Assembly: GCA_938022165.1 (NCBI GenBank)
Contig: CALIEI010000138.1
Location: forward strand, 1-32,981
DNA from: an uncultured Saprospiraceae bacterium
GTDB lineage: Bacteria > Bacteroidota > Bacteroidia > Chitinophagales > Saprospiraceae
Direction of reading: 5' to 3'
DNA: 32,981 bases
A model generated the notes under the pieces. It saw only the letters and a list, made by a program, of their open reading frames with translations, ran no database searches and was not told where the DNA came from. A program made the position numbers and the translations under genes. Shown here piece by piece: positions 914 to 31,279 of this stretch. Numbering within the stretch: position 1 is the first letter of the stretch; each line of letters begins with the position of its first letter.

Positions 914-3061
914 TTACATCTTTATGATGCGTTGTACGAACATATTACTATTTGAAATATGCTGAAGTCGAACAAAATGCAACCCAGAACTCAAGGAACT
1001 TAAATCAATAGTTTCTTCGCTTTGGTTACTTGAATTAATTTGCAAGACAACATTTCCAAGGGCATCTATTACATCGATATTATACAAGCTGAGATTACCT
1101 TGTATTACAAAAATATCATTTGTAGGATTGGGAAATATTTCGATGTCAAAATCATTAGCTGAGATGTTTACAGTGCTAGTAGCAGGAGCTTGATCTACAC
1201 CCATTATGGCCGATAATAATTTAATATAAGCCGCTTGATAATAAATGGCTGGCTCTGTTATCTCCCAAGAAACTGCACTGCCGCCTGAGTTAAAATCCGC
1301 ATAGGATTTATAATAAGGCTGATTCGCAGGTGGGTTACTTGTACCTGAATATGTATGATTGGGTCCACCCGATAAGAATCCAGGAGCAGGACCATACAAT
1401 GAAGTATTTACATTATCAAAATCAGTTCCATCACTAAACCAAGTATGATAAATCTCATCAGCACTATTCTCAGCTCCTTTATTATTCATGTTACTTAGAA
1501 ACACCTTTCCAAGTGGATTACAGCCATGAAGGAAATGTAGATGGCCAGCCGCTTTATCTCTGTATGAATCAGGAGTTGAATTGCTTGTAACAAATCGATT
1601 GACATTGAGATTTAGGTTCCCCATACTGCTTTGTTGAGAATTGCTCCCCCATCCTAAATAATAATTTGGCATATAGCAACGATACAAGTCAATGTTAGAA
1701 GATCCATAATAGTCTTCCCAATTATTATTTATTGCAGCATTTTCAAATGAAGTAAGGAAATCGTTAGCTACTGTAGCATCATTTCCTGGCAAGGTAGAAT
1801 AATGTACATATGCATCCTTTGACATCATATAATTTATACCCCATTGCTCGTCAAAAGTGCTATTAAAGTCGAAACCAAAAACCAGTGATTTTTGATATTC
1901 ATTAACTATAAAATCATTATAGGCTGTTTTACCAGTCGCTTCAAATAAATAAATTGCCGTTCCAATAAAATACTCTTGATATTTTTCGCTATTGAAGTCA
2001 GCATCACCAGCTACGATAGAACCATCATCACAATCTAATTCCAAAGTTCCCGTATTGTAAAATGGCAATACATAATTCCAACATAATTCAGCTTGTGTTA
2101 AAAGACTATTTGCATAACTATTCAAACTTGGAAAATCCTTCAAAACAAAATAGGCATGTGCAAATACAGAAGCAACCGTTAGCGATGCCGATGTACAGGT
2201 TGGACCATAAAAGCGCTGATCAGTATTTGCGCTTGGAGGAGAAGATATGTTGACATTAAAGTTGGTACTGCCCATTTTGATCTGTGCACTCCCATCTAAA
2301 TTACTCATTTTTTGGAGCCAATCTAATTCCCATATTATTTCATCCAGTAAATCTGGAATTCCATTTCCAGATTCTGGCAAATTGAAATTATCAGTGAATA
2401 GGCTTGGATTATATCTATATGCCCATAATAAGGCATGGATAGTTTCCATTGTGAAGGTGGTGTATTTATTATAATCCCCTGCATCAAACCAGCCTCCCGA
2501 AAGATCCCTTTCAAGGCTAGCATCATTTGGGCTTCCAACAAACCTACAATTGAAATCTTGTAAAGCATTATCAAAATTCATCCCATCTGTCCAATTAGCT
2601 TCTGCATATGGAACTTCCTTGCTGTGGTTACAACGATTATAGTAGTACATTTTGGTTGCTGTTTCCAATACAGTATCGTACACATCGTAGCCTATCTCAA
2701 AGTCAGCAGAAGATTCATTATTTTGTGCATCGTGTAAGTAATAAGTTCCTGCTGTAGTTACATTTGAAAAATCTACCCACCATCCTTTATCGCCTGACCA
2801 GACTGAATCTGTATTTCCGTTATTCCAAACCAATGGATTATAAACACCAACGATAGCATTGGTATTCGCATTTCTTAATTCTATGGATGTACTTGGAGAA
2901 TAATTAAGTGAGGAATTAAAGCCCACTTCAGGGCTACTCAAAACTGCTATTTTGGTTGCATTAGGCGTATACCCAAATTGATCTACATGGATAAATGGGC
3001 TCTGTGAAAAAAGCCCATAACTCAGCATAAATAGAACAAGAAAAAGATGGACCGTTTTCAT
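914..3061 (-). CDS. Glycoside hydrolase family 9 (endoglucanase-like) with N-terminal Ig-like domain and C-terminal T9SS type A sorting tail
   Basis: Signal peptide; FIHVDQFGYTPNATKIAVLSSP (CelD-type N-terminal Ig domain); LSGGWFDAGDYNKYTTFT (GH9 catalytic DAGDYxK); HFLHGCNPLGKVF; C-terminal FDIEIFPNPTNDIFVIQG...GLHFVRLQ..VQRIIKM (T9SS Por-type tail). Confidence 0.9.
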   Translation of the reverse strand: MKTVHLFLVLFMLSYGLFSQSPFIHVDQFGYTPNATKIAVLSSPEVGFNSSLNYSPSTSIELRNANTNAIVGVYNPLVWNNGNTDSVWSGDKGWWVDFSNVTTAGTYYLHDAQNNESSADFEIGYDVYDTVLETATKMYYYNRCNHSKEVPYAEANWTDGMNFDNALQDFNCRFVGSPNDASLERDLSGGWFDAGDYNKYTTFTMETIHALLWAYRYNPSLFTDNFNLPESGNGIPDLLDEIIWELDWLQKMSNLDGSAQIKMGSTNFNVNISSPPSANTDQRFYGPTCTSASLTVASVFAHAYFVLKDFPSLNSYANSLLTQAELCWNYVLPFYNTGTLELDCDDGSIVAGDADFNSEKYQEYFIGTAIYLFEATGKTAYNDFIVNEYQKSLVFGFDFNSTFDEQWGINYMMSKDAYVHYSTLPGNDATVANDFLTSFENAAINNNWEDYYGSSNIDLYRCYMPNYYLGWGSNSQQSSMGNLNLNVNRFVTSNSTPDSYRDKAAGHLHFLHGCNPLGKVFLSNMNNKGAENSADEIYHTWFSDGTDFDNVNTSLYGPAPGFLSGGPNHTYSGTSNPPANQPYYKSYADFNSGGSAVSWEITEPAIYYQAAYIKLLSAIMGVDQAPATSTVNISANDFDIEIFPNPTNDIFVIQGNLSLYNIDVIDALGNVVLQINSSNQSEETIDLSSLSSGLHFVRLQHISNSNMFVQRIIKM

Positions 3062-11300: not shown

Positions 11301-11611
11301 GACTTAAAGATGTGAAAAAATACCTGTTTTGCTTAAAAAAATCACTGCTTTCTCGGTTTATTAGACCTTTTGATTAAAATTTCAGTTTTGTAGCAGCGTT
11401 TTGAAGCATATTGTTATCTAATATAATGAAAACTAAAATGCATACTTTTTTGAGTGCCCATGGTCTCAACTAAGAATATAAAGCTAAAATAACACTGAAT
11501 GAACAATTAGGCTATTAACAAAATTTAATATAAATGGTACGGAAGGAGATTTTCTCCTTCCAGTTTTGTATCTTTTACAACGTTTATATTATTTCATCTA
11601 GGAACAAGCAT

Positions 11612-12190
11612 TTGAAACTCGAGAGCATCATACTAGGCTGTCAAAAAAAAGATCGTAAGTGTCAAGAGGCGCTCGTGAGAAAATATGCTCCTACGCTATT
11701 GAATATTTGTAAAAGATATGTCTATGATCCTGATTTAGCGCAAGATGCCTTGCAAGAGTGTTTTCTTAATACTTTTAAATACATAGATAAGTATTCTGGG
11801 AAAGGATCTTTTGAAGGCTGGATAAAACGAATTGCCGTGAATTGCGCTTTAGGTGTGCGAAAGAAAATGAAGGGAGACTTGTATATCCATGAGATGGAGC
11901 AAGTATTAAATGTTACTACAGATATACCGGATGCCGTTTCAAAACTGAAAGAGGAAGAAATTCTAAAAGTAGTGGAAGGCTTGCCGGAATCATGTGCAGT
12001 AATTTTCAAACTCTTTATAATAGAAGGCTATCCGCATAAAGAGATTGCAGCCATGCTTGGCATCCAAGAATCCACCTCAAGATCTCAACTTGCAAGAGCC
12101 AGAGAGAAATTGATTGTAAAACTTAGAAAAATCGAGAGTGTAGAGTTCAATAGATTGAATAACCTATTCTTTCAAGTACAAAGAAATTAA
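11612..12190 (+). CDS. ECF-type RNA polymerase sigma-70 factor
   Basis: LVRKYAPTLLNICKRYVYDPDLAQDALQECFLNTFKYIDKYSGKGSFEGWIKRIAVN (sigma region 2) and EIAAMLGIQESTSRSQLARAREKL (region 4). Track ORF begins at 11534, but homologous sequence starts near a TTG at 11612; true start uncertain. Confidence 0.9.
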   Translation: MKLESIILGCQKKDRKCQEALVRKYAPTLLNICKRYVYDPDLAQDALQECFLNTFKYIDKYSGKGSFEGWIKRIAVNCALGVRKKMKGDLYIHEMEQVLNVTTDIPDAVSKLKEEEILKVVEGLPESCAVIFKLFIIEGYPHKEIAAMLGIQESTSRSQLARAREKLIVKLRKIESVEFNRLNNLFFQVQRN

Positions 12191-13594: not shown

Positions 13595-14095
13595 ATGTCA
13601 ATTTCCAAAATAGAGAAGGCGCCGATGGCGAAGATAGACAGCCTTAATCAAGTTGCTGAATTTCATACTACTTTCAAGCATCCAATACTTTCAGAGCCAA
13701 CAATCCCGGCTAAAGAAAGAGCAGACTTGCGCGTACGCCTTATTGCAGAGGAGCTAGACGAACTTAAGGAAGCTATTGCAAATAATGACCTAGTTGAGGT
13801 GGCTGACGCCTTATGCGATATTCAATACGTCCTATCAGGGGCAGTATTAGAATTTGGATTAGGAGATAAATTCGTTGAACTTTTTGAGGAAGTACAGCGC
13901 TCCAACATGAGCAAAGCTTGTGATACTATGGAGGAAGTAGAAGCTTCAATAAAGCATTATAAGGAAAACAAAGGTGAAGACTGTGCTTACAAAGTAGAAG
14001 GAGATAAATTCTTGCTCTATAGGACTACTGACAACAAGACTTTGAAATCTATCAATTATTCTCCTGCAGATCTTAAATCTATTTTGGAAGACTAA
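13595..14095 (+). CDS. MazG/HisE-like nucleotide pyrophosphohydrolase family protein
   Basis: VRLIAEELDELKEAIANNDLVEVADALCDIQYVLSGAVLEFG: EExxE ... D(A)xxD all-alpha NTP-PPase motif. Track ORF starts at 13553; MSISKIEKAPMAKIDSLNQV from 13595 is the more plausible start. Confidence 0.85.
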   Translation: MSISKIEKAPMAKIDSLNQVAEFHTTFKHPILSEPTIPAKERADLRVRLIAEELDELKEAIANNDLVEVADALCDIQYVLSGAVLEFGLGDKFVELFEEVQRSNMSKACDTMEEVEASIKHYKENKGEDCAYKVEGDKFLLYRTTDNKTLKSINYSPADLKSILED

Positions 14096-15183
14096 CTATC
14101 ATTTAGCTCTATAATCTTCTCCGTAAAAGTGGATAGCATTTTAGAGTTAATCCCGATCTTATATTTTATCACCTTTCGATTTTTATCCAATAAGATAAAG
14201 GTTGGATAGTATTTTATTTTGAATCTATTCAATACAAGATCTTTGAGGTAAGCGAAATTAAGACCTATGTCTTCAAGTTTTTCTATTTCATCTTTTTCAT
14301 AATCTGTTTTGAATCCAAGTAAATAGAATTCAACTTTTTTACCCTCTAAGGCTTCTACCATACTACCAATAAGCTCCTCCTCTAAAGAGCTTATTTTATG
14401 AAAACCGCAGAAAGCCATTACGACTAGACTATCTGCATCAGATTGTTCAGTTACTTTAGTTTTATCTGCCAATTTAAGTTTGTACCCAATTTTCTTTTTA
14501 TTCAATTTGAATAAAGACCAAGATTCTTTAGTGACTATTGTCTCATCAAAAGAATCTCTAATGTCCTCCGGGAAAACTTCATCTGTTATACGATAATCAT
14601 CAAGTGTAAAAGTGGACTTATCGGTAACAGTTGGAAAAATGGATTTGGCTACGTAGGTAACTCGACCATATACATCATCCACAAATGTATATTGCATAGC
14701 ATAACCTTGGACTTGAGAAAACGGGGTAAAATTCACCCCAAACACATCGGTCGTATAGATTTCTATTTTTGTATCGTTGTGTATAATTTCATATTTTTTG
14801 CATCGCATTCCACCAATTTGGTACAACTTCTCATCATTCGTGTTTGACACTAATGTTGGTATTTGTGCAAGCGGACTCTTAACGGCTATTTTATCCTTTT
14901 CATCTTTTTGGTAGCATTGATAATCTAAGCCATTTACCAGATCATATACATGCACCTCATCAATATCGGCAGCATATTTATTTAATGTCAAGACATAATC
15001 AGGGCTGACTATATGAAAGGTCTCGTAAGGTAGGTTGTATTTGTAGCTAGACAAGCTATCTGAATTTTCTACATATACTTCGTATCGTATTTCAATGACG
15101 TTGACGTCTTCTGCTGCGCGGAGCTCAAAAAAAAGCGTACAAAACACGAAAAGAGTAAACGGAATAACTTTCATAATAAACAC
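14092..15183 (-). CDS. Exported protein with C-terminal thioredoxin-like fold lacking a CxxC motif
   Basis: Signal peptide; C-terminal SLVVMAFCGFHKISSLEEELIGSMVEAL...VEFYLLGFKTDYE...RFKIKYYPTFILLDKNRKVIKYKIG (TlpA/thioredoxin-like pattern with cis-Pro YYPTFILLD). Confidence 0.65.
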   Translation of the reverse strand: MFIMKVIPFTLFVFCTLFFELRAAEDVNVIEIRYEVYVENSDSLSSYKYNLPYETFHIVSPDYVLTLNKYAADIDEVHVYDLVNGLDYQCYQKDEKDKIAVKSPLAQIPTLVSNTNDEKLYQIGGMRCKKYEIIHNDTKIEIYTTDVFGVNFTPFSQVQGYAMQYTFVDDVYGRVTYVAKSIFPTVTDKSTFTLDDYRITDEVFPEDIRDSFDETIVTKESWSLFKLNKKKIGYKLKLADKTKVTEQSDADSLVVMAFCGFHKISSLEEELIGSMVEALEGKKVEFYLLGFKTDYEKDEIEKLEDIGLNFAYLKDLVLNRFKIKYYPTFILLDKNRKVIKYKIGINSKMLSTFTEKIIELNDS

Positions 15184-15204
15184 CTAATGTATTGATGATC
15201 TACT

Positions 15205-15377
15205 ACTATTGAGTCCATTCCGGAAAGTAGCGGATTGCAAAAAATAGGCTATTTTGGATGAGATTTTTTATTCTCGATATTCAGTGATGCCTGAGCATCA
15301 GTGGATTGAGAAAATGAAAAATATCGCCAAAAGAGTCATTTTGTGCTTTCGTGACTTTTCGGAATGGACTCACTATT
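15205..15377. mobile_element. MITE-like near-palindromic element (161 bp, 15211-15371) with 6-bp flanking direct repeat ACTATT
   Basis: Left end GAGTCCATTCCGGAAAGT (15211-15228) and right end ACTTTTCGGAATGGACTC (15354-15371) are inverted repeats with one mismatch; imperfect dyad continues to a central tgatgc-ctga-gcatca (15285-15300); ACTATT at 15205-15210 and 15372-15377. Confidence 0.8.
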
Positions 15378-15442
15378 AATATTTAAACCTAAAGCATAAC
15401 AGAATTGAGTTATGCCATTTAATTAAAGATAAAGGATATGAA

Positions 15443-16762
15443 TTACAATTTTAAGTTTTTAATGATGTACTGTCCTACTTTTTCCCCTTGTTGTACTCCA
15501 TTGTCAATAGCTGGTCTATAATGGATACCTCCATATAGTCTACTGATAGCAGCTTCCTGACTAGCTTCAACAAATGAATCAAAACTACGGACTGGTAAGC
15601 CATATTCAACCTCTACATCATCATCAAAACTAAAACTATCCCCATACAAGTGAGTAAGGACTAGGGCTGCTGCGGTAGAGATAACTGAATGTCCACTTGT
15701 ATACTCTGGAAAAGGTGGTGTTTGTAGTGCAGGTTTCCAATTTTCATCTATATGCTCGTTTATCACCGTCTCAGGGCGAATTAAATTACTCCTATACTTC
15801 TCATCCCAACAACTAATAAAAGCGTCTGCAAGCGCAATAGAGACCATACAGTAAGCCTTTAAGGTACCAAGAAAGTCGTCATTAGCTTTCTTCGATGCAA
15901 TTGCGGTAATCCCTTGCCAATGGCCACCTGGGGTAATTTTTTTTGTAGCAAACATAACATGGCCTGTCTGATTCATAACATACGGGTTACAATCCCAAAA
16001 GCTAGCAATCTCTACCCTCTCTTCTTTATTATCTGCTTCTAGCGCATGATAAACCTCCATTAGTTCTTTATAAAATAGGCTATTCTCTTTTAGATTAAAC
16101 TCAGTCGGCGGAGGTGGCACAAACTGGTCAGCAGATTTAATTACAAATGGTCTGATTTCTTTCCAGTGCGGCTCGATTCCTGTCATATAAGCAGGAGGAG
16201 TTGGCTTCCATCTATATATTTCATCTTCAATTATTGAAAACTTAGGGTAAGTTCTTGTCTCTTTGTAATTATCTTTATCAGCCCAGTCCAGAATGTGATC
16301 AGCGACTTTATTTCCATAATCAGTTGACCTCTTATACACGTCCGAGGGCATATTCACAGCTTCAAACTCTTTTAAAATTTCCTCCTCAAATGTTGTCATC
16401 TTTTCTTCTGAAAAAATCAAAGCCTTCCCAACCTTTATGTATGCGATCATACTTGCCAGCGGATAGCAAACTTCTTCATCCTCAGCAGGACGAGGAATAG
16501 CAGAAAGACCTTTAAGTTGTCCTTCTAATGATGTAGCCTTATTTTCGGAATGAGCCATTACTTCGTAGGCTGCAATGATAGGATAAGCATATACCCGCGA
16601 TGCGACTGGCGGAGAAAAAATATCATGGACAATAATATCCGACAACTGCTTTACAGTACGATGTATAATCTCAGTTTGAGCGGCGTCTTTTTGATAGTTA
16701 GGATTGGGTTTTTCGCAAGAGAAAAATACTAGTAGGCAAATAAGACTAGCAAACTGTTTCAT
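15443..16762 (-). CDS. Vanadium-dependent haloperoxidase / PAP2-fold lipoprotein
   Basis: Lipoprotein signal LICLLVFFSCEKPN; KYRSNLIRP (KX6RP), EYTSGHSVISTAAALVL (variant PSGH), ISRLYGGIHYRPAIDNGVQQGEKVG (SRX5H): VHPO/acid phosphatase core motifs. Confidence 0.88.
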   Translation of the reverse strand: MKQFASLICLLVFFSCEKPNPNYQKDAAQTEIIHRTVKQLSDIIVHDIFSPPVASRVYAYPIIAAYEVMAHSENKATSLEGQLKGLSAIPRPAEDEEVCYPLASMIAYIKVGKALIFSEEKMTTFEEEILKEFEAVNMPSDVYKRSTDYGNKVADHILDWADKDNYKETRTYPKFSIIEDEIYRWKPTPPAYMTGIEPHWKEIRPFVIKSADQFVPPPPTEFNLKENSLFYKELMEVYHALEADNKEERVEIASFWDCNPYVMNQTGHVMFATKKITPGGHWQGITAIASKKANDDFLGTLKAYCMVSIALADAFISCWDEKYRSNLIRPETVINEHIDENWKPALQTPPFPEYTSGHSVISTAAALVLTHLYGDSFSFDDDVEVEYGLPVRSFDSFVEASQEAAISRLYGGIHYRPAIDNGVQQGEKVGQYIIKNLKL

Positions 16763-16820
16763 ATGATAATTTTTGATTCATAAATATACTGAAAAGTACA
16801 GTCGCCAGTAAAACTGATAT

Positions 16821-19800
16821 CTATAATTCTTTTTGATTTGGATCTATTCTAAGGATTCTTAATGAATCATTATTTGTAGCTACAAGAATCATATTTTGAT
16901 CTTTGGTCCCTTTAAGGCGCTTTATATTTCTAATTTGAGCGCGAATCTTAACCTCAGGTGTAAAGGCTTTTTCAAATTCACCATTTCCTTTATTTATCAA
17001 CAAACTACCAAGGTCGCTATCTAATCTTCCCATTTGAATATTATTATCATAAAAGTTCCCTCCCATGAAAACATCCATTAGCTCATCTCCATTAGCATCC
17101 ACTACAATAGCATCATTATAAGATGTCCACTGCAAGTTATCAGCCAATGATTTTACTTCAAATTGCAAATTACCATTGTTGATCAAGATGGCATTCTGAA
17201 AATAATCGACATAGCTTAGCTGAGCTTTAGATAAATTGTCTTTACCAATAAGCTCATTAAGGCTTGCTTTCGCAAAATCCTTTGCTAGCAGAAAATCTTT
17301 CTTTAAATAAGGAAGTTGAGTTTCTAATTCATGCTTATTTGCAAATGGTATTTCCTTATCATCAATATAATAAGTTAATAATTGCTCCTTAGTACCATTT
17401 GCATCAAAGTCATTATAGTACATTCTTATCGGTTGCTCCTCAGAGGCCTTCAATCTACTATTCAAGCCTAAGTTTCCAGCTAAAATATCGATGTCGCCGT
17501 CATTATCGAAATCATAAGGCAAGACAAAATTCCACCAACCATGTTTGTCGATGAGTTTTCTCCGCTCAAACTTTGATCCTTTACGAATAAAAGCCTCTAC
17601 TGCTCCCCATTCTAAAGCAAGAATCAAATCAAGTTCTTTGTCTCCATTAAGATCAGACCATTGTGCATCTTTTACAAATTGATAATTTGTCAATTCAGGT
17701 GCATACTCTTCCGTCTTATCCATATACTTTCCTTTGCCATCATTTATAAGAACATATGAAGAAGGAAGGACGCCATAACTTCTAGAAACAGCTCTTGCTC
17801 CGATAAATAGATCTGGATATCCATCTCCATTAATATCGTTTGAGATAATGCATGAAGCCGTTAATTTTACATTATTAGGGAAAGCACCTTCAACAGAACT
17901 AAATGACCCTTTACCGTCATTACTATACACTCTAGGTGAGTTCCACTCAGAAGTAACTGAATATTCACTTCCTCCATTAGCTGTAACTAAATCTAGATCT
18001 TTATCTCCATCTACATCAATAAGCAAGGCACTCACTTCTTCACTTATTGAATCTCTTCTAAACACCTCTGAAGAACGTTGAATAAAAGTGCCATTTTGTT
18101 GTTGGACATATACTTTACTTAGCTTTCTTTTTGAAGATCCAATATAAAAGTCATCCAAACCATCACCATTTACATCGCCAACAGCTAAGGCAGGCCCTTC
18201 AGAGGAAGTCATATGCGGAATAAGAGACTCTCTATTAAATTCAATAAAAGGATTTTCCTTGTGCTGCACATTTAATTGAAGCTGTTTTGTTTGGTCTGTC
18301 AAACTGTTAAATGTTACATTCCTACGCTTCAATTGTTCATAATTAAATTTTGCTAGTCCTGCGGTATAGGAAATCTCACTATCATCTTTAGCAGATATTT
18401 TTTGATAAGTATTATCTGGCCAAACTAAATGTATTGAGTCTACTTCATTGACGTCTCCAATTCCAAGATGAAAAGGTATTTCCATTGAGGATTGAAAACC
18501 TCTCAAAGGGAATTTTTCATGAAAAATTGTTTGATCTTTTTTATAGACAATCACCTTTGATCCAATTGCATTGATGTTATTCTCCGCTCCTTTTAATTTC
18601 AAACTCAAAAAAGACTCTGGATTAGGATTTGAATTATTTTCATAAACTAGTGCTTCGTCATCAATGTTATTCACTACGACATCGAGATCACCATCATTAT
18701 CTAGATCTGCATAAATGGCCCCATTGGAATAGGTGTTTTTATCGTTAAAAATATTTGGTCCTAAATCTTGAAAAGTCAGATCACCATTATTTTTAAAAAA
18801 GCGGTTTGGTAATTTAATCTCTGGTAGATTATCAATCATCTCGACATCCTTATCTTCCACAGCCTTGGTTCTTATTCGGTTTTGAATATCCACTTTTTCT
18901 ACAAAGTTGATGTAGTCAATATCATTCATTCGTTTTGGTATACCATTGCTGATAAAAGCATCTTTATATCCATCATTATCAAAGTCAAACAACAATGCAG
19001 CCCAGGACCAATCTGTTGCGTGTACTCCTGCATACATCGCTAATTCAGAATAAGTGTTATTTCCTTGATTGACTTGCAACGAATTTTTAGCATACTGGTA
19101 ATTGTAACCATAGCCCAGTTTAAATTTGAAAATATCAAACGCATCTTCTCCTTCCGATGTTTTCAAAATGTAAGGATCAGAAGGAAGCATGTCTAGTGTT
19201 ATTAGATCGGGATATAAATCATTATTAATATCCGCAGCATCAACACCCATACTAAATCTACTAGTATGCATCATTTGATTCGTTAGGTCTTCCTTAAATA
19301 TTCCATTTCCCTGATTGACATACAAGTAATCATTTTCATGGAAATCATTGCCTACATACAAATCTGGCAATCCATCTAAGTTGAGATCTGAAGCTACTAT
19401 TCCTAAACCATACCCAATAACAGAACTGTTGATACCTGCATCTTTTGTCTTTTCAACAAATCTCCCATTTTGATTTTCCAAATATTTATCTCCAGAAGTT
19501 GGATGGAACTCTTCTGCAAAATTTTTCCTTTGACCGAAAGTTCCATTCGCATGCAAGGAGTGATTCATCTGAAAGACATCCAAGTCTCCATCAAGGTCTG
19601 CATCAAAAAATAAAGTTTGCGTTCCAAAGCTAGATTGCGCTAAACCTATTTCTTCAGCCATTTCTTTATATATCGGAATTCCATTTTCATCAATAGATTG
19701 ACAAATGAAAAACAAATTCCTTCCTTCTAGATCTTGAAATGCACCTAATTGAGTAACATATATATCTAGTAAACCATCATTATTAAAATCTACTATTGAA

Positions 19801-20165
19801 ACTCCATTCGACCAAGCATCTTCAGGAATTTCTATTCCTGAATCTTTTGAAACATCTTTAAATTTCATCCCTCCCTCGTTCAAGAAAAGTTTATTAGAAC
19901 CTTGGTTAGATGAAAAGTAAAGATCTATCAGACCATCATTATTAAAATCACCAGCTCCTACCCCTGCACCATTATAAAAGTACATGTAGTTGAATATATT
20001 CATATCTATGGATAACTCTAGCTTGTTGCTAAAGTGCAAACCCGTTTCAGAAGAATCTAATATTTTAAATGCAGCAGCTTCTAGTGAGATATGCTCAGAG
20101 GAATTTTGGTGGCAACTAAAAAACACAACAAAACAAAAAGCAAGAAGTAGTACTTTATTCAACAT
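16821..20165 (-). CDS. VCBS/FG-GAP repeat-containing ASPIC/UnbV (CRTAC1-like) lipoprotein, copy 2
   Basis: Lipoprotein signal LLLAFCFVVFFSCHQN; many DxNxDGxxDL Ca2+-loop repeats (GDFNNDGLIDLYFSSN, YADLDNDGDLDVVVNN); ASPIC/UnbV-like GSKVIVYKKDQ...RGFQSSMEIPFHLGIG..EVDSIHLVWPD. Confidence 0.92.
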   Translation of the reverse strand: MLNKVLLLAFCFVVFFSCHQNSSEHISLEAAAFKILDSSETGLHFSNKLELSIDMNIFNYMYFYNGAGVGAGDFNNDGLIDLYFSSNQGSNKLFLNEGGMKFKDVSKDSGIEIPEDAWSNGVSIVDFNNDGLLDIYVTQLGAFQDLEGRNLFFICQSIDENGIPIYKEMAEEIGLAQSSFGTQTLFFDADLDGDLDVFQMNHSLHANGTFGQRKNFAEEFHPTSGDKYLENQNGRFVEKTKDAGINSSVIGYGLGIVASDLNLDGLPDLYVGNDFHENDYLYVNQGNGIFKEDLTNQMMHTSRFSMGVDAADINNDLYPDLITLDMLPSDPYILKTSEGEDAFDIFKFKLGYGYNYQYAKNSLQVNQGNNTYSELAMYAGVHATDWSWAALLFDFDNDGYKDAFISNGIPKRMNDIDYINFVEKVDIQNRIRTKAVEDKDVEMIDNLPEIKLPNRFFKNNGDLTFQDLGPNIFNDKNTYSNGAIYADLDNDGDLDVVVNNIDDEALVYENNSNPNPESFLSLKLKGAENNINAIGSKVIVYKKDQTIFHEKFPLRGFQSSMEIPFHLGIGDVNEVDSIHLVWPDNTYQKISAKDDSEISYTAGLAKFNYEQLKRRNVTFNSLTDQTKQLQLNVQHKENPFIEFNRESLIPHMTSSEGPALAVGDVNGDGLDDFYIGSSKRKLSKVYVQQQNGTFIQRSSEVFRRDSISEEVSALLIDVDGDKDLDLVTANGGSEYSVTSEWNSPRVYSNDGKGSFSSVEGAFPNNVKLTASCIISNDINGDGYPDLFIGARAVSRSYGVLPSSYVLINDGKGKYMDKTEEYAPELTNYQFVKDAQWSDLNGDKELDLILALEWGAVEAFIRKGSKFERRKLIDKHGWWNFVLPYDFDNDGDIDILAGNLGLNSRLKASEEQPIRMYYNDFDANGTKEQLLTYYIDDKEIPFANKHELETQLPYLKKDFLLAKDFAKASLNELIGKDNLSKAQLSYVDYFQNAILINNGNLQFEVKSLADNLQWTSYNDAIVVDANGDELMDVFMGGNFYDNNIQMGRLDSDLGSLLINKGNGEFEKAFTPEVKIRAQIRNIKRLKGTKDQNMILVATNNDSLRILRIDPNQKEL

Positions 20166-20167
20166 GC

Positions 20168-23100
20168 TTACTTTAGAATTTTAAAAAGCTTTGGAGATTC
20201 GTTATTAATACCTACAAGTATATGTCTCTGATTGTTTATAGATAAAAGCTTAATGTCTTGCACTTCACCTTTAACGCTTAGTCCGGTTTGGTTTAGTACC
20301 TCAAAATTTCCTTTTCCATCATTTATTAATAAATGTCCTCTACTGGCATCCAGTCTTGAAAACTGAGGAAGGAAATCAAAATTATTTCCTCCAATTACTA
20401 AATCCTCATCTCCATCCTCATCTATATCTATAGGTAAGATTGCATTCACACAAGACAACTGTACATCAATAGGCAATTCTTTAATTTTAAAATTTCCTTG
20501 TCCATTGTTAATAGCGATACATGAAGGCAAATAACTTACCCCTTTTCGAGAAGCTGCATCTAATAATTTTTTATCAAAAAGATCTTCAATACCTTTTGTA
20601 GCAAAATCTTTATGCATAAGATTTTTTTTCTTCAATATTGGAAGTTGCTCAGTTAACTCACGCTTAGAAAAAATTGGGTAGTTTTTATTTCCATCAGAGT
20701 AAGTAATGATTTTATCAAACTCTCCATTTTGATCAAAATCATAAACGAATATTCTTAAAGGATCATTCTCTTCCGCTTTGAAAGATACGTTCTTACCTAT
20801 GTTCCCAAGTATCAAATCTTGATCACCATCTTTATCTATATCAGCTGTAGAAACACTATTCCAAAAACCATATAGTTTAGATAATGATGATTCCACTTTC
20901 ACAAAACCTTCACCATTGTATTGAAAAATACTGGGTGCCATCCACTCTCCTACAACTACTAATTCTTTTTTATCGTCACCCATCAAATCAATCCAAGCAG
21001 CATCTTTTATCATACCTACGGTTCGCATTTCCTTTGGAAGCTCGAAAGATTCAAATTTTCCATTTCCCAAATTTTTGTAGATAAAGCAATTGGGACTCAC
21101 TCCATATGTTCTTGTCAAATTTAGATTCCCTACAAACAAATCAATCAATTCATCACCATCAAAATCATAAGGCAAGACTGCGGATGTATTCATCCTATTG
21201 TTGGGTAAGCCATCTTTGCTTAAATCATAATTTCCTTTTCCATCGTTAATAAGAAGGCGATCTGCAATAAGTGGGTTATGCGCTAATTGTTCATTACCTC
21301 CACTACCAACAAATAAGTCTTGATCGCCATCTGAATCTGCATCAAAAAATGCTACAGCAGTATCTTCAAAATCTTTCAACTTTTCAAGTAAGTCTTTCTC
21401 GCTTTGTACGAATTGACCATTACTGCTAAGCATGAATTGGCCAGCTTGACCCTTAGCCCCAGAAAAGTAGATGTCACTTTGGCCATCGCCATTCAAGTCA
21501 GCAACACCAATCTTTGGCCCTTCTTGCGAATACATCGATGGGATATTTCTTTCATAGTAAAAATCAACATAATCATTTTCCTTGTGCGCTTCAATTTTGA
21601 ATGGCACCTCTTCCAATAGAGTTTTTGTAGTCGTTGATTTGTTTGAATCAACAAACAAACTGGAATTGATTTCACTTTGACTTATTTCTATATCTTGATT
21701 GACGGCTTCTACCATATGTTTTGTTTCTTTTCCATCAGGCCAGATAACTATAAGGGAATCTATTTTTTCATACTCCCCTAAGCCAAAAATGCTGGTATAG
21801 TCTACAGAAGATTGAAACCCTCGGTTAGGCACAAGCTCTTTTAGCAATATCTTGCCCTCTACATAAAGCTTCAATTTAGCGCCGATAGCAAAAGTATTTT
21901 TCTCCTGTCCCTTAAGTTTTACTCTTAGATAGTTAGCACTAGAATTATTTTTAAAGATTTGACTTTGCTGATTAACGTTATTCACTACTAGATCAAGATC
22001 ACCGTCATTATCTAAATCACCATAGGCAGCCCCATTAGAGAATGATTCTTTATCTAAACCCCATTCTTGGGCAGATTCAGAAAAAGTTAAATCTCCATTA
22101 TTTCTAAATACATTATTGACAATCGGTGTAGAAGGCATTTTTTCAATGATATTGAATAACTCTTCCTTCTTACCTCCAAGTGCCATTTTTGAAACTACAT
22201 CATTAGCGAAGAAGTCAATGAAATCTAAATCAACTACATCTTTATAAATTCCATTGCACACATAAATATCCGTATTGCTATCATTATCCATGTCAAACAT
22301 TAGCGCTCCCCAGCTCCAATCAGAGGCAGCTACATTTGCGAAATTAGAAATCTCTTTAAAGCGGTTGTCGACAGAATTTAACTGCAAGGTATTTTGCATA
22401 TATTGATTGTAAAATCCACTCTTAGTTTTTAGCTTGAATAAATTAATGTCATCAAAAGAAGCATTTTTCTTTCTTCTTTGTGGATCTATAGGAAGCATAT
22501 CGGTGACAAATATGTCACTCAAGCCATCATTATTAATATCCGCCATATCAGCGCCCATAGAGGAATGGGAAATATGATCTATGTAGCTAGGAAGGTCTTC
22601 TTTAAACTTCCCATTCTTATCATTTATATATAAATAGTCTCGTTCGAAAAAATCATTGCTGACATAAATATCTGGCCACTTATCATTATTCACATCGCCA
22701 ATAGTAACCCCTAATCCAAAACCAATTAAACTTCCAAATATTCCTGACTCTTCACTTACATCGACAAAGGTGTTCCCATCATTGCGTAATAACTTATCAC
22801 CACCTCCTTTAAGGAATTCTTCAACAGGCCAGTCTTTTGCCCTTAGATTTCTTTTATTAGAATAGTTCAAGGTGTTGACCGGAATGAAACTGTTGTTTAA
22901 AATATATAAGTCTAGGTCTCCATCTTTATCGTAGTCGAAAAAAGATGCATGAGTAGTATAGCCTTCTTCATCTAGGCCCCATTCGCTGGCAGATTCTGTA
23001 AAAGTTAGATCCTTGTTATTAATATACAAGGTGTTGTTTTGCTTACTCCCTTTTCTATAGCCAGCGTTGCACACATAAATATCTAAATATCCGTCTAGGT

Positions 23101-23473
23101 TGATATCAACCATGGCAACACCTGTGCTCCATTTATTTTCATCAAGCACGCCAGCTGTTTCTGAAATATCTTTAAACTTAAAATCTCCTTCGTTTAGGTA
23201 AAGGCGATTGGCACCCATATTTGAAGTAAAGAATACATCAGGCAAACCATCATTGTTTACGTCACCTATTGCAACTCCCCCACCATTGTAAAAATTTCTA
23301 TAATTGAAAATATTGAAGTCCTCACTATTATGAACCTCATTGATAAAATCCACACCTGAATGACTGGAGTTAACTTCCTTGAATAGCTTTTTGGACGAAT
23401 CCATATCCGAATCAGAACAAGAAATGAAAGCAAATAAAATGAATAGAATGAAAAATTTTCTAGAGAAAATCAT
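20168..23473 (-). CDS. VCBS/FG-GAP repeat-containing ASPIC/UnbV (CRTAC1-like) lipoprotein, copy 1
   Basis: Lipoprotein signal FILFILFAFISCSDSD; GDVNNDGLPDVFFTSN, YGDLDNDGDLDLVVNN repeats; GAKLKLYVEGK...RGFQSSVDYTSIFGLG..KIDSLIVIWPDG. Clear paralogue of 16821-20165. Confidence 0.92.
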   Translation of the reverse strand: MIFSRKFFILFILFAFISCSDSDMDSSKKLFKEVNSSHSGVDFINEVHNSEDFNIFNYRNFYNGGGVAIGDVNNDGLPDVFFTSNMGANRLYLNEGDFKFKDISETAGVLDENKWSTGVAMVDINLDGYLDIYVCNAGYRKGSKQNNTLYINNKDLTFTESASEWGLDEEGYTTHASFFDYDKDGDLDLYILNNSFIPVNTLNYSNKRNLRAKDWPVEEFLKGGGDKLLRNDGNTFVDVSEESGIFGSLIGFGLGVTIGDVNNDKWPDIYVSNDFFERDYLYINDKNGKFKEDLPSYIDHISHSSMGADMADINNDGLSDIFVTDMLPIDPQRRKKNASFDDINLFKLKTKSGFYNQYMQNTLQLNSVDNRFKEISNFANVAASDWSWGALMFDMDNDSNTDIYVCNGIYKDVVDLDFIDFFANDVVSKMALGGKKEELFNIIEKMPSTPIVNNVFRNNGDLTFSESAQEWGLDKESFSNGAAYGDLDNDGDLDLVVNNVNQQSQIFKNNSSANYLRVKLKGQEKNTFAIGAKLKLYVEGKILLKELVPNRGFQSSVDYTSIFGLGEYEKIDSLIVIWPDGKETKHMVEAVNQDIEISQSEINSSLFVDSNKSTTTKTLLEEVPFKIEAHKENDYVDFYYERNIPSMYSQEGPKIGVADLNGDGQSDIYFSGAKGQAGQFMLSSNGQFVQSEKDLLEKLKDFEDTAVAFFDADSDGDQDLFVGSGGNEQLAHNPLIADRLLINDGKGNYDLSKDGLPNNRMNTSAVLPYDFDGDELIDLFVGNLNLTRTYGVSPNCFIYKNLGNGKFESFELPKEMRTVGMIKDAAWIDLMGDDKKELVVVGEWMAPSIFQYNGEGFVKVESSLSKLYGFWNSVSTADIDKDGDQDLILGNIGKNVSFKAEENDPLRIFVYDFDQNGEFDKIITYSDGNKNYPIFSKRELTEQLPILKKKNLMHKDFATKGIEDLFDKKLLDAASRKGVSYLPSCIAINNGQGNFKIKELPIDVQLSCVNAILPIDIDEDGDEDLVIGGNNFDFLPQFSRLDASRGHLLINDGKGNFEVLNQTGLSVKGEVQDIKLLSINNQRHILVGINNESPKLFKILK

Positions 23474-23548
23474 ATACCAAAACTACAAAAAAAGGTCGTC
23501 TGTAAATCAATACAGACGACCTAAAAATTCTTTATTTGGTACTAAATA

Positions 23549-25051
23549 TTAGTACCCAGGATTTTGTACAAGGTTTGGATTTCCAGCAAGAGATCTTGAA
23601 GGGATTGGGAACAATAAACGCTCCTCACCAGTAGCGGGCTTTTCTTCCCAAGCGTCTAAGAATCTTCCAAATCTAATTAAATCTTGTCTTCTATGACCTT
23701 CCCAGTACAACTCTCTTCCTCTTTCCGCTAGTAAAGATGCTTCATCAATTGCAGATAGAGCACTTGCACCACGGATTGTTCGTATGTTGTTAACGATGTC
23801 CAATGCTCCCGCAGAGTCACCAGTTCTCATTAGTGCTTCAGCTTGCATTAACAAAACATCAGCATATCTGTAGAATACATAGTCGTTATCAACATTGTCT
23901 CCATTGTTATAATCAATTGGATACTTAACAACTCTAACACCAGTAACTTCTAGATTAGATCCTGACTCTTGAATTGCAACCTCTGGCGTAAAAGCAAGTG
24001 GATTACCTAATCTATCTTCCAATGCATTACCATCTTGATCAAACTGTTGACCTGCAAGAAATCCAGCGTTAATACCAGCTACTTCTGTAGAGCCTTCGTA
24101 ATCAGTTGCTCTTCTCGCATCATCATCTTCGAAACTAGCGTAAAAGTCACCTAATGTTGAGAATCCGTTCCATCCTGAAGGATTTTGATTATAGTGTAAA
24201 GTACAGAACCATCTTGATCTAACGTTACCAGAACTAATCCCGCCTTGATTTAAACCAGTGAAAATATTTTCCGTTGAAATCGCATCATTAGTTGGCGCGA
24301 AATTATCGAAATAATTTGTTGCCAAACTATATTTACCGGAATTCGTCAACTGTTGCGCAATAGCATTTACTCTATTCATATCAGCTGCATCGAAACTAGG
24401 TGCCGCTCTATTTAAGTAAACTCCTCTATTAAGTAATAACTTCATCTCAAGTACTAATGCTGCATCTTTATTAGCAACATGTGCTGGACCATCAGGAAGA
24501 TTTGAACTAATGGCTTGAAGTTCACTTATAATAAAATCAATAGTCTCTTGTGGTCCAAGTACGGTAGCATCCTCTAAAAGAGGCGCACCAGCTTCTCTAA
24601 ATGGAACTTGTCCCCAGCCATCTAATACGGAACCCATCACAAAAGCTCTTAGGAATCTTGCTTGTGCTTCTTGCTCTGGAGTAGGTTCAAACTGTAAGAT
24701 GTTAGTCGTACCAAATACAACTTGTAATAGCTCTGAAAATGTGCTCGCTAAAAAATCATGATCAGGTGACCATGAGTGATCGTGAAGTGATCTCCAAATA
24801 CCATTATCATCCCAATCCGGTCCTCTAGTTGGCCCTATGGTCTCATCAGAAGTATGCTGTTGAGCAGCCCAAAATCTAGATTGATCTTGATATGGCAATC
24901 TTAATGCTTCATACTGAGCAGTCAATAAATTCTCTACATCAATCAGATCAGCATTTTGCTCCACCGTAATGGTATCTCTGATTTCTGGTTCTAAGTCTGT
25001 GCATGAAAAACCTAGCATCAAACCAAGAAATAAAATGAAATAATTCTTCAT
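23549..25051 (-). CDS. SusD/RagB-family outer-membrane nutrient-binding lipoprotein
   Basis: Lipoprotein signal FLGLMLGFSCTDLEPE; YADVLLMQAEALMRTGDSAGALDIVNNIRTIRGA and RELYWEGHRRQDLIRFGRFLDAW: SusD C-terminal signatures. Confidence 0.93.
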   Translation of the reverse strand: MKNYFILFLGLMLGFSCTDLEPEIRDTITVEQNADLIDVENLLTAQYEALRLPYQDQSRFWAAQQHTSDETIGPTRGPDWDDNGIWRSLHDHSWSPDHDFLASTFSELLQVVFGTTNILQFEPTPEQEAQARFLRAFVMGSVLDGWGQVPFREAGAPLLEDATVLGPQETIDFIISELQAISSNLPDGPAHVANKDAALVLEMKLLLNRGVYLNRAAPSFDAADMNRVNAIAQQLTNSGKYSLATNYFDNFAPTNDAISTENIFTGLNQGGISSGNVRSRWFCTLHYNQNPSGWNGFSTLGDFYASFEDDDARRATDYEGSTEVAGINAGFLAGQQFDQDGNALEDRLGNPLAFTPEVAIQESGSNLEVTGVRVVKYPIDYNNGDNVDNDYVFYRYADVLLMQAEALMRTGDSAGALDIVNNIRTIRGASALSAIDEASLLAERGRELYWEGHRRQDLIRFGRFLDAWEEKPATGEERLLFPIPSRSLAGNPNLVQNPGY

Positions 25052-25074
25052 ATCTTAATTTTTATTATAAAGTT

Positions 25075-28068
25075 TTAAAATGAGGCTCCAACAGTAAGCA
25101 AAAATGATCTCGCTGATGGATACGGTATATACTCAATTCCTTGAGAAGGTACGCCATTTCTTAGATTTACAGTGTTAACTTCCGGATCAAAGCCTGAATA
25201 ATTGGTAAATAATGCTAGATTTTGTCCAGTTATTGACACGTTTATATCCTTTAATTGTCCAGCATCTCCAAATCTATACCCTAAAGTTAGATTAGACAAT
25301 TTCACAAAATCACCATCTTCTACAAATCTTGAAGAAGCTGAGATTGGATTTGCACGACTTTCCTGAACAGGTCCATCTAATAACACTGCGTCAATATTTC
25401 TAGTTCCTATGTTACCAATAGGAAGTACACTGTTCGCTGTATTATTATAAATTTGGTGTCCAAATGCACCGTGCAAATTAGCTCCAATGAAGAATCCACC
25501 AGCTTCAAAGTTAATATTGAATCCTAATACAGTGTTTGCATTTGGATCTCCAGCAGCCATCAATTCTCCATCATTTGCGAAAATTGAATTTCCATCATCG
25601 TCAAGCCCTTGATAATCTCTTACAAAGAAGGTATTGATTGGGAAACCATTTCTAATCGTTTGGACAGTTGTATTTGAAATACCTTGTCCAAATAATTCTC
25701 CAGTAGGAACTTCAATAGTAAAATCTCTTATCTCATTAGTTAAGAAAGCCAAGTTTACACCAGCTGACAATCTAACGTCTCCTTTATTGATAATGTTTGC
25801 ATTTAACCCTATTTCAAGTCCGCTGTTTACCAATTCACCATCAAGATTTTGGAAAGGTCTTGCTGGAGGTCCAGGCTCAGAAACTTGCAAGTCTAATAAT
25901 AAGTCGCTAGTTACTCTGTTGTAGTATTCAACCGTTCCTGTAATACCGTAATTAAATAATGAAAAATCAACCCCTACATTAAATGTAGCTGAAGATTCCC
26001 AAGTTAAATTAGGGTTAGCCTCACGAGTCAAAAACTGACCTGAATTATCTAGAAGATCAATCACAGTCAATGCCGCATCAGCAGCAAATTCCTGATTACC
26101 AGAAATACCCCATCCAGCTCTAAGCTTTAACTGATCGATAGCGTCATTTGCCAAGAAAGATTCATTATGTAAATTCCAAGCAGCAGCCACTGATGGGAAT
26201 ACACCATATCTATTATTCTCTCCAAAACGAGTAGAACCATCTGCTCTTAAAGTACCCGTCAATAAGAATCTATCATTAATGTTTAAGTTTGCTCTTCCAA
26301 AGAATGATTGTATTTCACTGATCGGCTCTGCAAAAGAAAACACATTTCTATTATCACGATTAGAGTTTTGTAATGCTAGATCATTATTGAAATCTAAAAT
26401 GTCAAATCCAAAGCCTCCAAATCCAAAGCCTTGAAAATTGAATTTTTGATATTCATAACCACCTAATAGGTTTAATGAATTGTTTGTTCCTAAATCTACA
26501 TTGTAGTTCAGAGTATGTGTGTGTACTTGGTTGATCAATCTGTTTTGAGATTGTCCTGCAAATCCAAGTCCTTCAACTCCTTGTACATTAATCAAACCAG
26601 AGATCCCACCAGAAGCATTACTGTTCGCAAAGTTATTACCATAACGGTAACGGTAAGTCAAATTATCAGTAATGTTCCAATACGGAGAAATAGAACCTAT
26701 AATAGTAGTCGTATTAGCTTGTTCTCTGTGAGCGTCCAACAATTGAAGTGGGTTGATAGTAGTAGCACCCACTGTCGCCGTTGTTGAATTATTAGTAGCT
26801 GTAGTAAAAGCCCCATTTGACATCAACGGAATAGTTGGATTCCATTGTAAAGCTTGTGCAACTAAGTTACCTGTAAAACCAGCGTTAGTCGAAATAGGCG
26901 CAATGTCTTCTACAGCATGAGAAGTAGCTAAAAATACATCAAAGCCTACTTTATCTTCCAATAAAGTATACTGTGCATTTATGGTAGCATTGTATCTTTC
27001 CAATCCTGATTCTCTAACAATACCCTCCGTATCAAAATATCCGAGAGATACTCTATAAGAACCATTATCTGAACCACCTCCTATAGACATATTATAGTTT
27101 TGAGTAGTACCCGTTTGTAAAATTTCATCTAAGGCATCTACATTTCCTCCACCATCTGCAGAAGCTAAATCGTCTCCAGTGAAACCATATTGACCCAAAG
27201 CAGATCTATATTCATCTCCATCTAGAATGTCATACCCGTTCAAAAGTGTACTTACACCTACACCTGCATTAAAGCTAATAGAAGGTTCAGCGTTTTTACC
27301 TTTTTTAGTAGTTACGATTATAACACCATTTGCTGCTCTTGCGCCATAGATAGCTGCTGAAGAAGCATCCTTTAATACTTGGATAGATTCGATATCCTGT
27401 GGATTAAGGAAGTTCAATGGGTTAGAATTTGGTAACTCTCCAATGTCTGTATTCAAGATACGTGCTCTAGCACTTCTACCATCCAATGGAATACCATCTA
27501 TTACATATAGTGGGTTTGCGCCTGCTCTGATAGAGTTATTACCTCTAATCTGAACAGTGGCTTCAGCACCAGGCTGACCACTATTGTTGGTAACATTAAT
27601 ACCCGGAAGACGACCTTGAAGCAGTTGATCAGAGTTTACAACTACCCCTTTGTTGAAATCTTTAGCCTCTAGAGATGCAACAGATCCGGTAAGGTCTGTC
27701 CTTCTAACAGCTCCGTAACCAATCACCACTACTTCATCTAAAATCTCTCCCGCTCCTAGCGATACGTCTACAACGTTAGATGCTCCTAATGGTATCGTTT
27801 GAGATCCATATCCAGTATAGGATATATCTAATGATTGTGCATCAGCAGGTACTTGAATAGAGTAAGTCCCATCTATGTCAGTGATGGTCCCTGTGGTAGT
27901 TCCAGTAACGATTACACTCGCACCGATTAGTGGATCTCCATTGTCGTTATCTATAATGGTACCACTAATGGTTCTTTGTCCATAAGAAACGATCGATATT
28001 GCCATAAAGGCAAACATCAAAATCAATCCCTTATAAGAATTGTCAAATTTGATTTTCATACATTCCAA
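25075..28068 (-). CDS. SusC/RagA-family TonB-dependent outer-membrane transporter (likely start at 28059)
   Basis: Carboxypeptidase-D-like domain GTIIDNDNGDPLIGASVIVTGTTTGTITDIDGTYSI; TonB box region DEVVVIGYGAVRRTDLTGSV; plug PLYVIDGIPLDG...DIESIQVLKDASSAAIYGARAANGVIIVTTKKG. Confidence 0.95.
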   Translation of the reverse strand: MECMKIKFDNSYKGLILMFAFMAISIVSYGQRTISGTIIDNDNGDPLIGASVIVTGTTTGTITDIDGTYSIQVPADAQSLDISYTGYGSQTIPLGASNVVDVSLGAGEILDEVVVIGYGAVRRTDLTGSVASLEAKDFNKGVVVNSDQLLQGRLPGINVTNNSGQPGAEATVQIRGNNSIRAGANPLYVIDGIPLDGRSARARILNTDIGELPNSNPLNFLNPQDIESIQVLKDASSAAIYGARAANGVIIVTTKKGKNAEPSISFNAGVGVSTLLNGYDILDGDEYRSALGQYGFTGDDLASADGGGNVDALDEILQTGTTQNYNMSIGGGSDNGSYRVSLGYFDTEGIVRESGLERYNATINAQYTLLEDKVGFDVFLATSHAVEDIAPISTNAGFTGNLVAQALQWNPTIPLMSNGAFTTATNNSTTATVGATTINPLQLLDAHREQANTTTIIGSISPYWNITDNLTYRYRYGNNFANSNASGGISGLINVQGVEGLGFAGQSQNRLINQVHTHTLNYNVDLGTNNSLNLLGGYEYQKFNFQGFGFGGFGFDILDFNNDLALQNSNRDNRNVFSFAEPISEIQSFFGRANLNINDRFLLTGTLRADGSTRFGENNRYGVFPSVAAAWNLHNESFLANDAIDQLKLRAGWGISGNQEFAADAALTVIDLLDNSGQFLTREANPNLTWESSATFNVGVDFSLFNYGITGTVEYYNRVTSDLLLDLQVSEPGPPARPFQNLDGELVNSGLEIGLNANIINKGDVRLSAGVNLAFLTNEIRDFTIEVPTGELFGQGISNTTVQTIRNGFPINTFFVRDYQGLDDDGNSIFANDGELMAAGDPNANTVLGFNINFEAGGFFIGANLHGAFGHQIYNNTANSVLPIGNIGTRNIDAVLLDGPVQESRANPISASSRFVEDGDFVKLSNLTLGYRFGDAGQLKDINVSITGQNLALFTNYSGFDPEVNTVNLRNGVPSQGIEYIPYPSARSFLLTVGASF

Positions 28069-28599
28069 TTTTGATATTTGTTAAAATATTTTTTCCATAC
28101 TTGTCTAGAAATGAAGAAATTACCCAATTCTAGTGTCTTTTTATTTCATACTAAGCGCTCTGACAAAAAGCTTAAAACACGGCAGAATCTATATTATGTG
28201 TTTCTTTTACAATTAGTAAATATATACACTTGGATTAAAATAAAAAAATTTTGTTGGTAACTTAGATTAATCACATGATCAGTAGTTGTCGATCTTTAAT
28301 TTGCAAAATTTGATGTTTGTGTAAAAAGAAAGCGAGCAGAATTTCAAGATAGTGACTTTAGTTTTAGATTATATTTTATCAGTTAACTGTTAATCAGTCA
28401 ACATTATTTATAAACAAGAAAAATCGTGCATAAATATATACTAATCGAAGAGTATTGGAAGCACAGGTAGTAAAGATTTAGTTTCTCAGCAATCAAAGTG
28501 TTATGGCGAAATGGTAAGTAAATTTTTACAGTCGATCCACTTGGTTGATGTCTTTATAATGAAAGTGAATTTTATAGCTATAGTCCGATATATTATATA

Positions 28600-28745
28600 C
28601 GTATACATCGCGGAAGCGTATAGCTGTAGCTCGACGCACCGGAGGGGCGTAAGGACAAGGGATAGCAGCGGCATCTCGTTTTTTATGACTGTAAGGAATA
28701 AAAACGAGATATAGCGTAGAGCCCGGTGCCGACGTAGTACGGCAT
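28600..28745 (+). ncRNA. Candidate structured RNA or dispersed structured repeat in the SusC-protease intergenic region
   Basis: Nested stems: gcaccgg (28636-28642)/ccggtgc (28723-28729) enclosing atctcgttttt...aaaacgagat (28673-28710); conserved-looking 'ggacaagggatagcagcggcatc...gatatagcgtagagcccgg' arrangement; GC-rich compared with flanks. Family and strand inferred, not searched. Confidence 0.5.
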
Positions 28746-28886
28746 GGTCCCAAAAAAGAATTTACAATACCTTTTAAGTGGCAACTTAGGTCAAGTTAAA
28801 ATGGTGTTGGAAAAGAAAACTTCATAATCTAAATATCAATTGAGTATCTTCATAATTGATTGGCCATTCTAAGGTTAAAGCGCAAC

Positions 28887-30571: not shown

Positions 30572-31279
30572 ATGGCACATAAAAAAGGAGTCGGTAGTAC
30601 TGACAACGGACGTGACAGTAATAGTAAAAGGTTGGGAATCAAACTTTTTGGTGGACAACTAGCTAGAGCTGGAAATATTATAATTCGCCAGAGAGGTACT
30701 AGATACCACGTTGGCCCAAATGCATATCTTGGTAGAGATCATACTGTACATGCTATGATCGACGGTCGTGTAGCTTACACAAAAGGAAGAAAAAATAGAA
30801 CCTACGTAAGCATCATTCCGTTGGAAAATGGTGAAGCTTTAGTTCCAAGCAAACCTCAAAAACAAGCTAAGCCAAAAGCGCCTGTGGCTCCAGCAGCACC
30901 AGTAGCAAAAGCAGAACCTGTTGCTCCAGTAGCACCAGCGGCTAAGCCTGCTGCAAAAGGGGATAAAATAGCATTTGATGGCAAAAAGTATGCTCCAGAT
31001 GACTTAACAATAATTGAAGGAATAGGACCAAAAATCAGCGAACTTCTTAAAGAAGGAGGCGTAAAAACATGGAGTGATCTTGCTGCTGCAGATGTCAGCA
31101 GACTCCAAGAAATTTTAGACGCAGCTGGTCCTAGATATAGAGTTCATAAGCCAGGTACTTGGCCAAAACAATCACAAATGGTGGTTGATGGTAAGTGGGA
31201 TGAACTTAAAGAATATCAAGATATTCTTGACGGGGGGGTTGACCCTTCCGAAGCGAAAAATTCTTCCGAAGAAGAATAA
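30572..31279 (+). CDS. rpmA: 50S ribosomal protein L27 with C-terminal Ala/Pro/Lys linker and helix-hairpin-helix-like extension
   Basis: [72 protein letters not shown] = L27; then [27 protein letters not shown] linker and [58 protein letters not shown] domain. Confidence 0.95.

Follow-up and report, generated by a model that had tools for sequence, protein, structure and literature searches.

We analyzed a stretch of 32,981 nt (the window; contig CALIEI010000138.1, positions 1 to 32,981) from an uncultured bacterium of the Saprospiraceae, in which five consecutive genes on the minus strand encode a SusC/SusD pair, two FG-GAP repeat proteins (VCBS1 and VCBS2) and a protein with the vanadium haloperoxidase (VHPO) fold. 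Domains were assigned with Pfam and NCBIfam profiles. The SusC-type TonB-dependent transporter (25075–28068) scored 658 bits against TIGR04056 (cut-off 368) and carries Plug and CarbopepD_reg_2 domains; SusD (23549–25051) scored 94 bits against PF07980 (SusD_RagB). They are followed by VCBS1 (20168–23473) and VCBS2 (16821–20165), predicted tandem beta-propeller lipoproteins with eight FG-GAP_3 repeats and one UnbV_ASPIC domain each, and by the PAP2-domain VHPO lipoprotein (15443–16762). The intergenic gaps are 23 bp (SusC–SusD), 75 bp (SusD–VCBS1), 2 bp (VCBS1–VCBS2) and 58 bp (VCBS2–VHPO). An initial annotation of this DNA had listed the same five genes, and all the reading frames are indeed open at those coordinates; for SusC the frame stood but the start did not, the listed codon being a TTG and an ATG three codons on (28059) being the likelier start. 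The lipoprotein signals that it had proposed were recovered as lipobox-type cysteines (SusD C17, VCBS1 C19, VCBS2 C18 and VHPO C16), the last three of which are invariant across alignments of relatives.

The earlier prediction of a surface SusCD system is supported. Of the features by which a polysaccharide utilization locus (PUL) is recognized, the run has this adjacent pair; a domain search of the window found no carbohydrate-active enzyme (CAZyme) inside the five genes, and no dedicated regulator (SusR, hybrid two-component system, or extracytoplasmic function (ECF) sigma/anti-sigma pair) adjoins them. The sole glycoside hydrolase (GH) found in the window, a GH9 enzyme that ends in a type IX secretion tail (914–3061), was rejected as the missing CAZyme, as it lies ~12 kb off with unrelated genes between. 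An ECF sigma factor gene (11534–12190) is on the opposite strand with three open reading frames between, and its position gives no support for a role as the regulator.

The fold assignment of the last gene can be made more precise: its product is zgVIPO1-like. In a phmmer search, residues 5–437 aligned to the vanadium-dependent haloperoxidase 4CIT/4USZ (E = 1.3e-165), the identity to zgVIPO1 of Zobellia galactanivorans being 55% over the full length, and all the PDB chains matched were haloperoxidases. 4USZ is the vanadium iodoperoxidase of that organism (PMC5064120). The vanadate-site motifs K-x6-RP, SGH and R-x5-H are present, within the conserved catalytic segments KYRSNLIRP, TSGH and SRxYGGIHY, and 132 of 140 homologues have all three. 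zgVIPO1 resembles the window protein in these motifs and in an aligned lipobox-like cysteine; it comes from a different organism and has been crystallized, and the activity of the window VHPO is predicted. Because of the full-length identity and the intact motifs, haloperoxidase is the leading candidate activity, and we consider it likely. In a tree of 141 rows, zgVIPO1 was sister to a Maribacter algarum copy (support 98), and the two were nested in a Flavobacteriaceae clade whose members' genes, according to the locus maps, mostly lie 3' of a VCBS–VCBS pair. Targeted searches, on which all statements about the window's own genome rest, found a single zgVIPO-type gene there.

VCBS1 and VCBS2 are ~1100 residues long, and their AlphaFold models are confident (pLDDT, the predicted local distance difference test, 87 and 84, respectively). 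The top PDB match of both models was murine CRTAC1 (cartilage acidic protein 1, 9etn), with TM-scores normalized to target length of 0.74 for VCBS1 and 0.68 for VCBS2, and of 0.38 and 0.35 when normalized to the query. The other structural matches were mostly multi-propeller proteins with low TM-scores. Both proteins have the combination that defines the CRTAC1 family, an FG-GAP propeller with an ASPIC/UnbV domain. CRTAC1 is about half their length, whereas the bacterial proteins are predicted lipoproteins and apparently have a second propeller. From the positions of domains, repeats and strands, we read the N-terminal half as the CRTAC1-like part and the remainder as the putative second propeller.

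The initial annotation gave the impression that this gene set recurs in Bacteroidota, and a gene-neighbourhood survey confirmed it. Of 295 genomes sampled from the class, 76 have VHPO homologues; the weakest of these matches are short hits to PAP2. We mapped 140 loci on whole genomes and on named public contigs. They were picked by similarity to the window VHPO, so that the fractions below describe this family rather than Bacteroidota at large. Where the upstream sequence runs to 6 kb or more (113 loci), 87 have a VCBS gene within 9 kb of VHPO and on its strand. Where it reaches 12 kb or more (52 loci), 39 carry VCBS and 23 of them SusC/D as well; the search models for SusC/D derive from window-like sequences, which makes their detection conservative. 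VCBS directly precedes VHPO in 67 of 140 loci, with a median gap of 4 bp. Most homologues at 38–45% identity keep the link, as do 5 of the 11 that fall below 38%. For scale, the window's own genome (3.9 Mb) has nine ASPIC proteins. Recurrence across families rules out a chance assembly, and one relative (L045), whose SusD is 60% identical to that of the window, has the same bare five-gene form. In about 20 Flavobacteriaceae loci (within L120–L177), genes for a GyrI-like protein of 299 aa and a weakly phytase-like protein of 284 aa were seen 3' of VHPO.

The earlier statement that the locus is without any CAZyme holds for the window run and fails for its relatives. On the same strand and within 9 kb of VHPO, 38 of 139 relatives have GH65 (kojibiose hydrolase), GH37 (trehalase) or GH13; family by family, the counts are 22, 23 and 20. 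By the same measure there are sodium:solute symporter (SSS) genes in 27 relatives and ROK-family sugar kinase genes in 13, and GlpK and GlpD genes were identified in several loci. The GH65 proteins exceed the NCBIfam kojibiose hydrolase cut-off (1109 versus 800) and the GH37 proteins that of the TreF model; the GH13 proteins are most like treC. A typical Fulvivirga order is SusD-VCBS1-VCBS2-GH65-VHPO-GH37-SSS-GlpK-GlpD-GH13. The SusD proteins nearest to that of the window belong to L160 (70% identity) and L165 (74%, partial). Both loci read SusD-VCBS1-VCBS2-GH13-VHPO, with one additional oxidoreductase gene in L165, and both are adjoined by genes for a major facilitator superfamily (MFS) sugar transporter and a GH37 trehalase. 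Since the loci of the nearest SusDs hold GH13 and the MFS/GH37 pair, the window run appears to be a reduced alpha-glucoside locus. The GH37 gene expected of a trehalose PUL is present in the nearest relatives' loci and absent from the window run. A single GH37 gene was found in the window's genome, on another contig (C241), where it overlaps an MFS gene of the type seen in relatives' loci; the two products are ~42–51% (GH37) and 44–48% (MFS) identical to most copies in those loci.

The gap between SusD and VCBS1 holds a terminator-like hairpin (23493–23522, minus strand) with a stem of 12 bp, a loop of 6 nt and a T tail. T-tailed hairpins, mostly of differing sequence, occur in 34 of 40 gaps that follow SusD in VHPO-linked loci, compared with none of 10 VCBS–VCBS gaps, none of 10 SusC–SusD gaps, 1 of 16 VCBS–VHPO gaps and 30 of 248 generic same-strand gaps; dinucleotide shuffles yielded ~0. 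The hairpin is not exclusive to VHPO-linked loci: among 16 further SusD genes that precede a comparable gap, 8 show such a hairpin (L208 was removed from this control, being the same locus as L048 and hence VHPO-linked). It is enriched in the VHPO-linked loci relative to these genes (p = 0.014). We read the hairpin as a feature of SusCD genes in general that is enriched in this locus type and through which SusCD transcript would exceed that of VCBS/VHPO. The operon-like spacing of the initial annotation stands as regards the short gaps, including the 2 bp between the VCBS genes, and not as regards an undivided run, since the hairpin splits SusCD from the downstream genes; 'one operon' may therefore mean SusCD with partial read-through. 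The only other SusD gene found in the same genome (on C98) is followed by a hairpin in the gap, a VCBS/ASPIC gene and a gene for a GH36/GH31-like protein.

We propose, with about even confidence, that the run represents a SusCD uptake locus in reduced form, to which a surface vanadium haloperoxidase is attached. Its substrate would be a small alpha-glucoside, likeliest trehalose or a trehalose/kojibiose-like sugar. Taken by itself, the assignment of an alpha-glucoside as the substrate of the window's copy is somewhat more probable than the contrary; the GH-bearing relatives and the genome's own trehalase/transporter pair make a trehalose-type sugar the most likely, and not a non-glycan. Uptake of the sugar would fall to SusC/SusD. 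Beside them would stand the two double-propeller lipoproteins as binding or scaffold proteins; both are rich in motifs that resemble Ca2+ sites, and the initial annotation had suggested a possible binding or shielding role for them. The VHPO lipoprotein, presumably facing outward, would use H2O2 to oxidize iodide, and perhaps bromide, close to the importer. Halide oxidation would remove H2O2, and the hypohalous acid could deter competitors or modify matrix material. In the window's genome, the MFS transporter would pass the sugar on to be cleaved by the cytoplasmic trehalase.

Several observations weigh against this proposal. Import of a disaccharide by SusCD would be unusual. The run itself carries no CAZyme, the organism's trehalase gene is on a different contig, and searches of the genome, 88% complete (12% is possibly missing), yielded neither GH65 nor a close GH13. 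In other relatives the SusC-SusD-VCBS-VHPO module adjoins GH29, GH3, GH20, GH35, GH30 or GH43, and VHPO/VCBS loci elsewhere also lie near a xylose-isomerase-like gene. Because the adjoining glycosidases differ in this way, the VCBS–VHPO pair does not go with any one sugar.

The pair might instead be a portable surface oxidation module, serving H2O2 quenching, suppression of competitors or destruction of quorum signals, that has joined SusCD loci with many different specificities, so that the sugar varies by lineage. The persistence of VCBS–VHPO next to varied glycosidases speaks for this, as does a VHPO–VCBS link that is more constant than the VHPO–CAZyme link. The SusDs nearest to that of the window, however, occur mostly in alpha-glucoside-linked loci, and we regard the portable module as possible but improbable. 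We consider it unlikely that the locus takes up a phosphorylated compound, with the PAP2-fold lipoprotein serving as a phosphatase at the surface, where it would trim a phospho-glycoside or a glycerophosphate glycolipid ahead of SusCD. The PAP2 fold does include phosphatases, and GlpK, GlpD and aquaporin-like genes in several Fulvivirga-type loci suggest a glycerol moiety, but the closest relative of solved structure, at 55% identity, belongs to the vanadate haloperoxidases and has all catalytic motifs in common, and no PDB match was of another kind. Import of a non-glycan (aromatic or halogenated) substrate, which the initial annotation had deduced from the missing CAZymes and which would also fit the ability of haloperoxidases to act on aromatics and the amidase-family genes in Roseivirga loci, is very unlikely in view of the glycosidases, symporters and sugar kinases of the relatives, among which are the loci of the nearest SusDs.

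A bolder form of the alpha-glucoside proposal, which we hold to be decidedly unlikely, is that SusCD, the VCBS proteins and the iodoperoxidase form one surface machine, in which glucose from trehalose-type sugars would feed H2O2 production, the iodoperoxidase would make hypoiodous acid and the Ca2+-binding propellers would hold the parts together. Arenibacter C-21, which encodes five or more zgVIPO homologues, is reported to require glucose, oxygen and calcium for iodine uptake (PMC5064120). If true, the one-machine arrangement would provide a gene-level basis for this dependence.

The flanks of the run have features of their own. Upstream of SusC (28570–28760) is a GC-rich dispersed repeat with ~14 partial copies at 77–94% identity. 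A weak terminator-like hairpin (15393–15416, minus strand) lies 3' of the VHPO gene, followed by a palindromic element of ~170 bp (15200–15385) that resembles a miniature inverted-repeat transposable element and has ~40 copies in the same genome, most of them 84–98% identical. The product of the downstream gene (14092–15183) has no Pfam match, its C-terminus reading as thioredoxin-like; it clusters with the product of a same-strand gene (362 aa) that is also 3' of VHPO in the nearest relative, L098. At 30572–31279 is a gene for a ribosomal protein L27 whose C-terminal extension bears a helix-hairpin-helix domain.

Related uptake systems have been described. According to PMC6298971, North Sea Flavobacteriia possess PULs for trehalose-like alpha-1,1-glucan whose SusC/D proteins were detected during blooms. 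These share the SusC/SusD pair with the window run, and GH37 and GH65 are found in the window's relatives; the window run differs in having no GH, and the main text of that paper mentions no haloperoxidase. FjDexUL, the branched-dextran PUL of Flavobacterium johnsoniae, includes a GH65 kojibiose hydrolase beside SusCD (PMC10316084), as do the 22 GH65-bearing relatives, but has GH31/GH66/GH97 in place of GH37/GH13, and neither VCBS proteins nor a haloperoxidase are mentioned. We found no paper describing SusCD, VCBS and haloperoxidase together (most subscription papers and supplements lay outside the search); each part was known already. The present findings connect zgVIPO1, a crystallized enzyme of unclear physiology, with sugar-uptake loci of a specific, widespread type and with a candidate substrate class. 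Should the coupling prove real, marine carbohydrate uptake would be linked to iodine cycling by bacteria and to oxidative chemistry at the cell surface.

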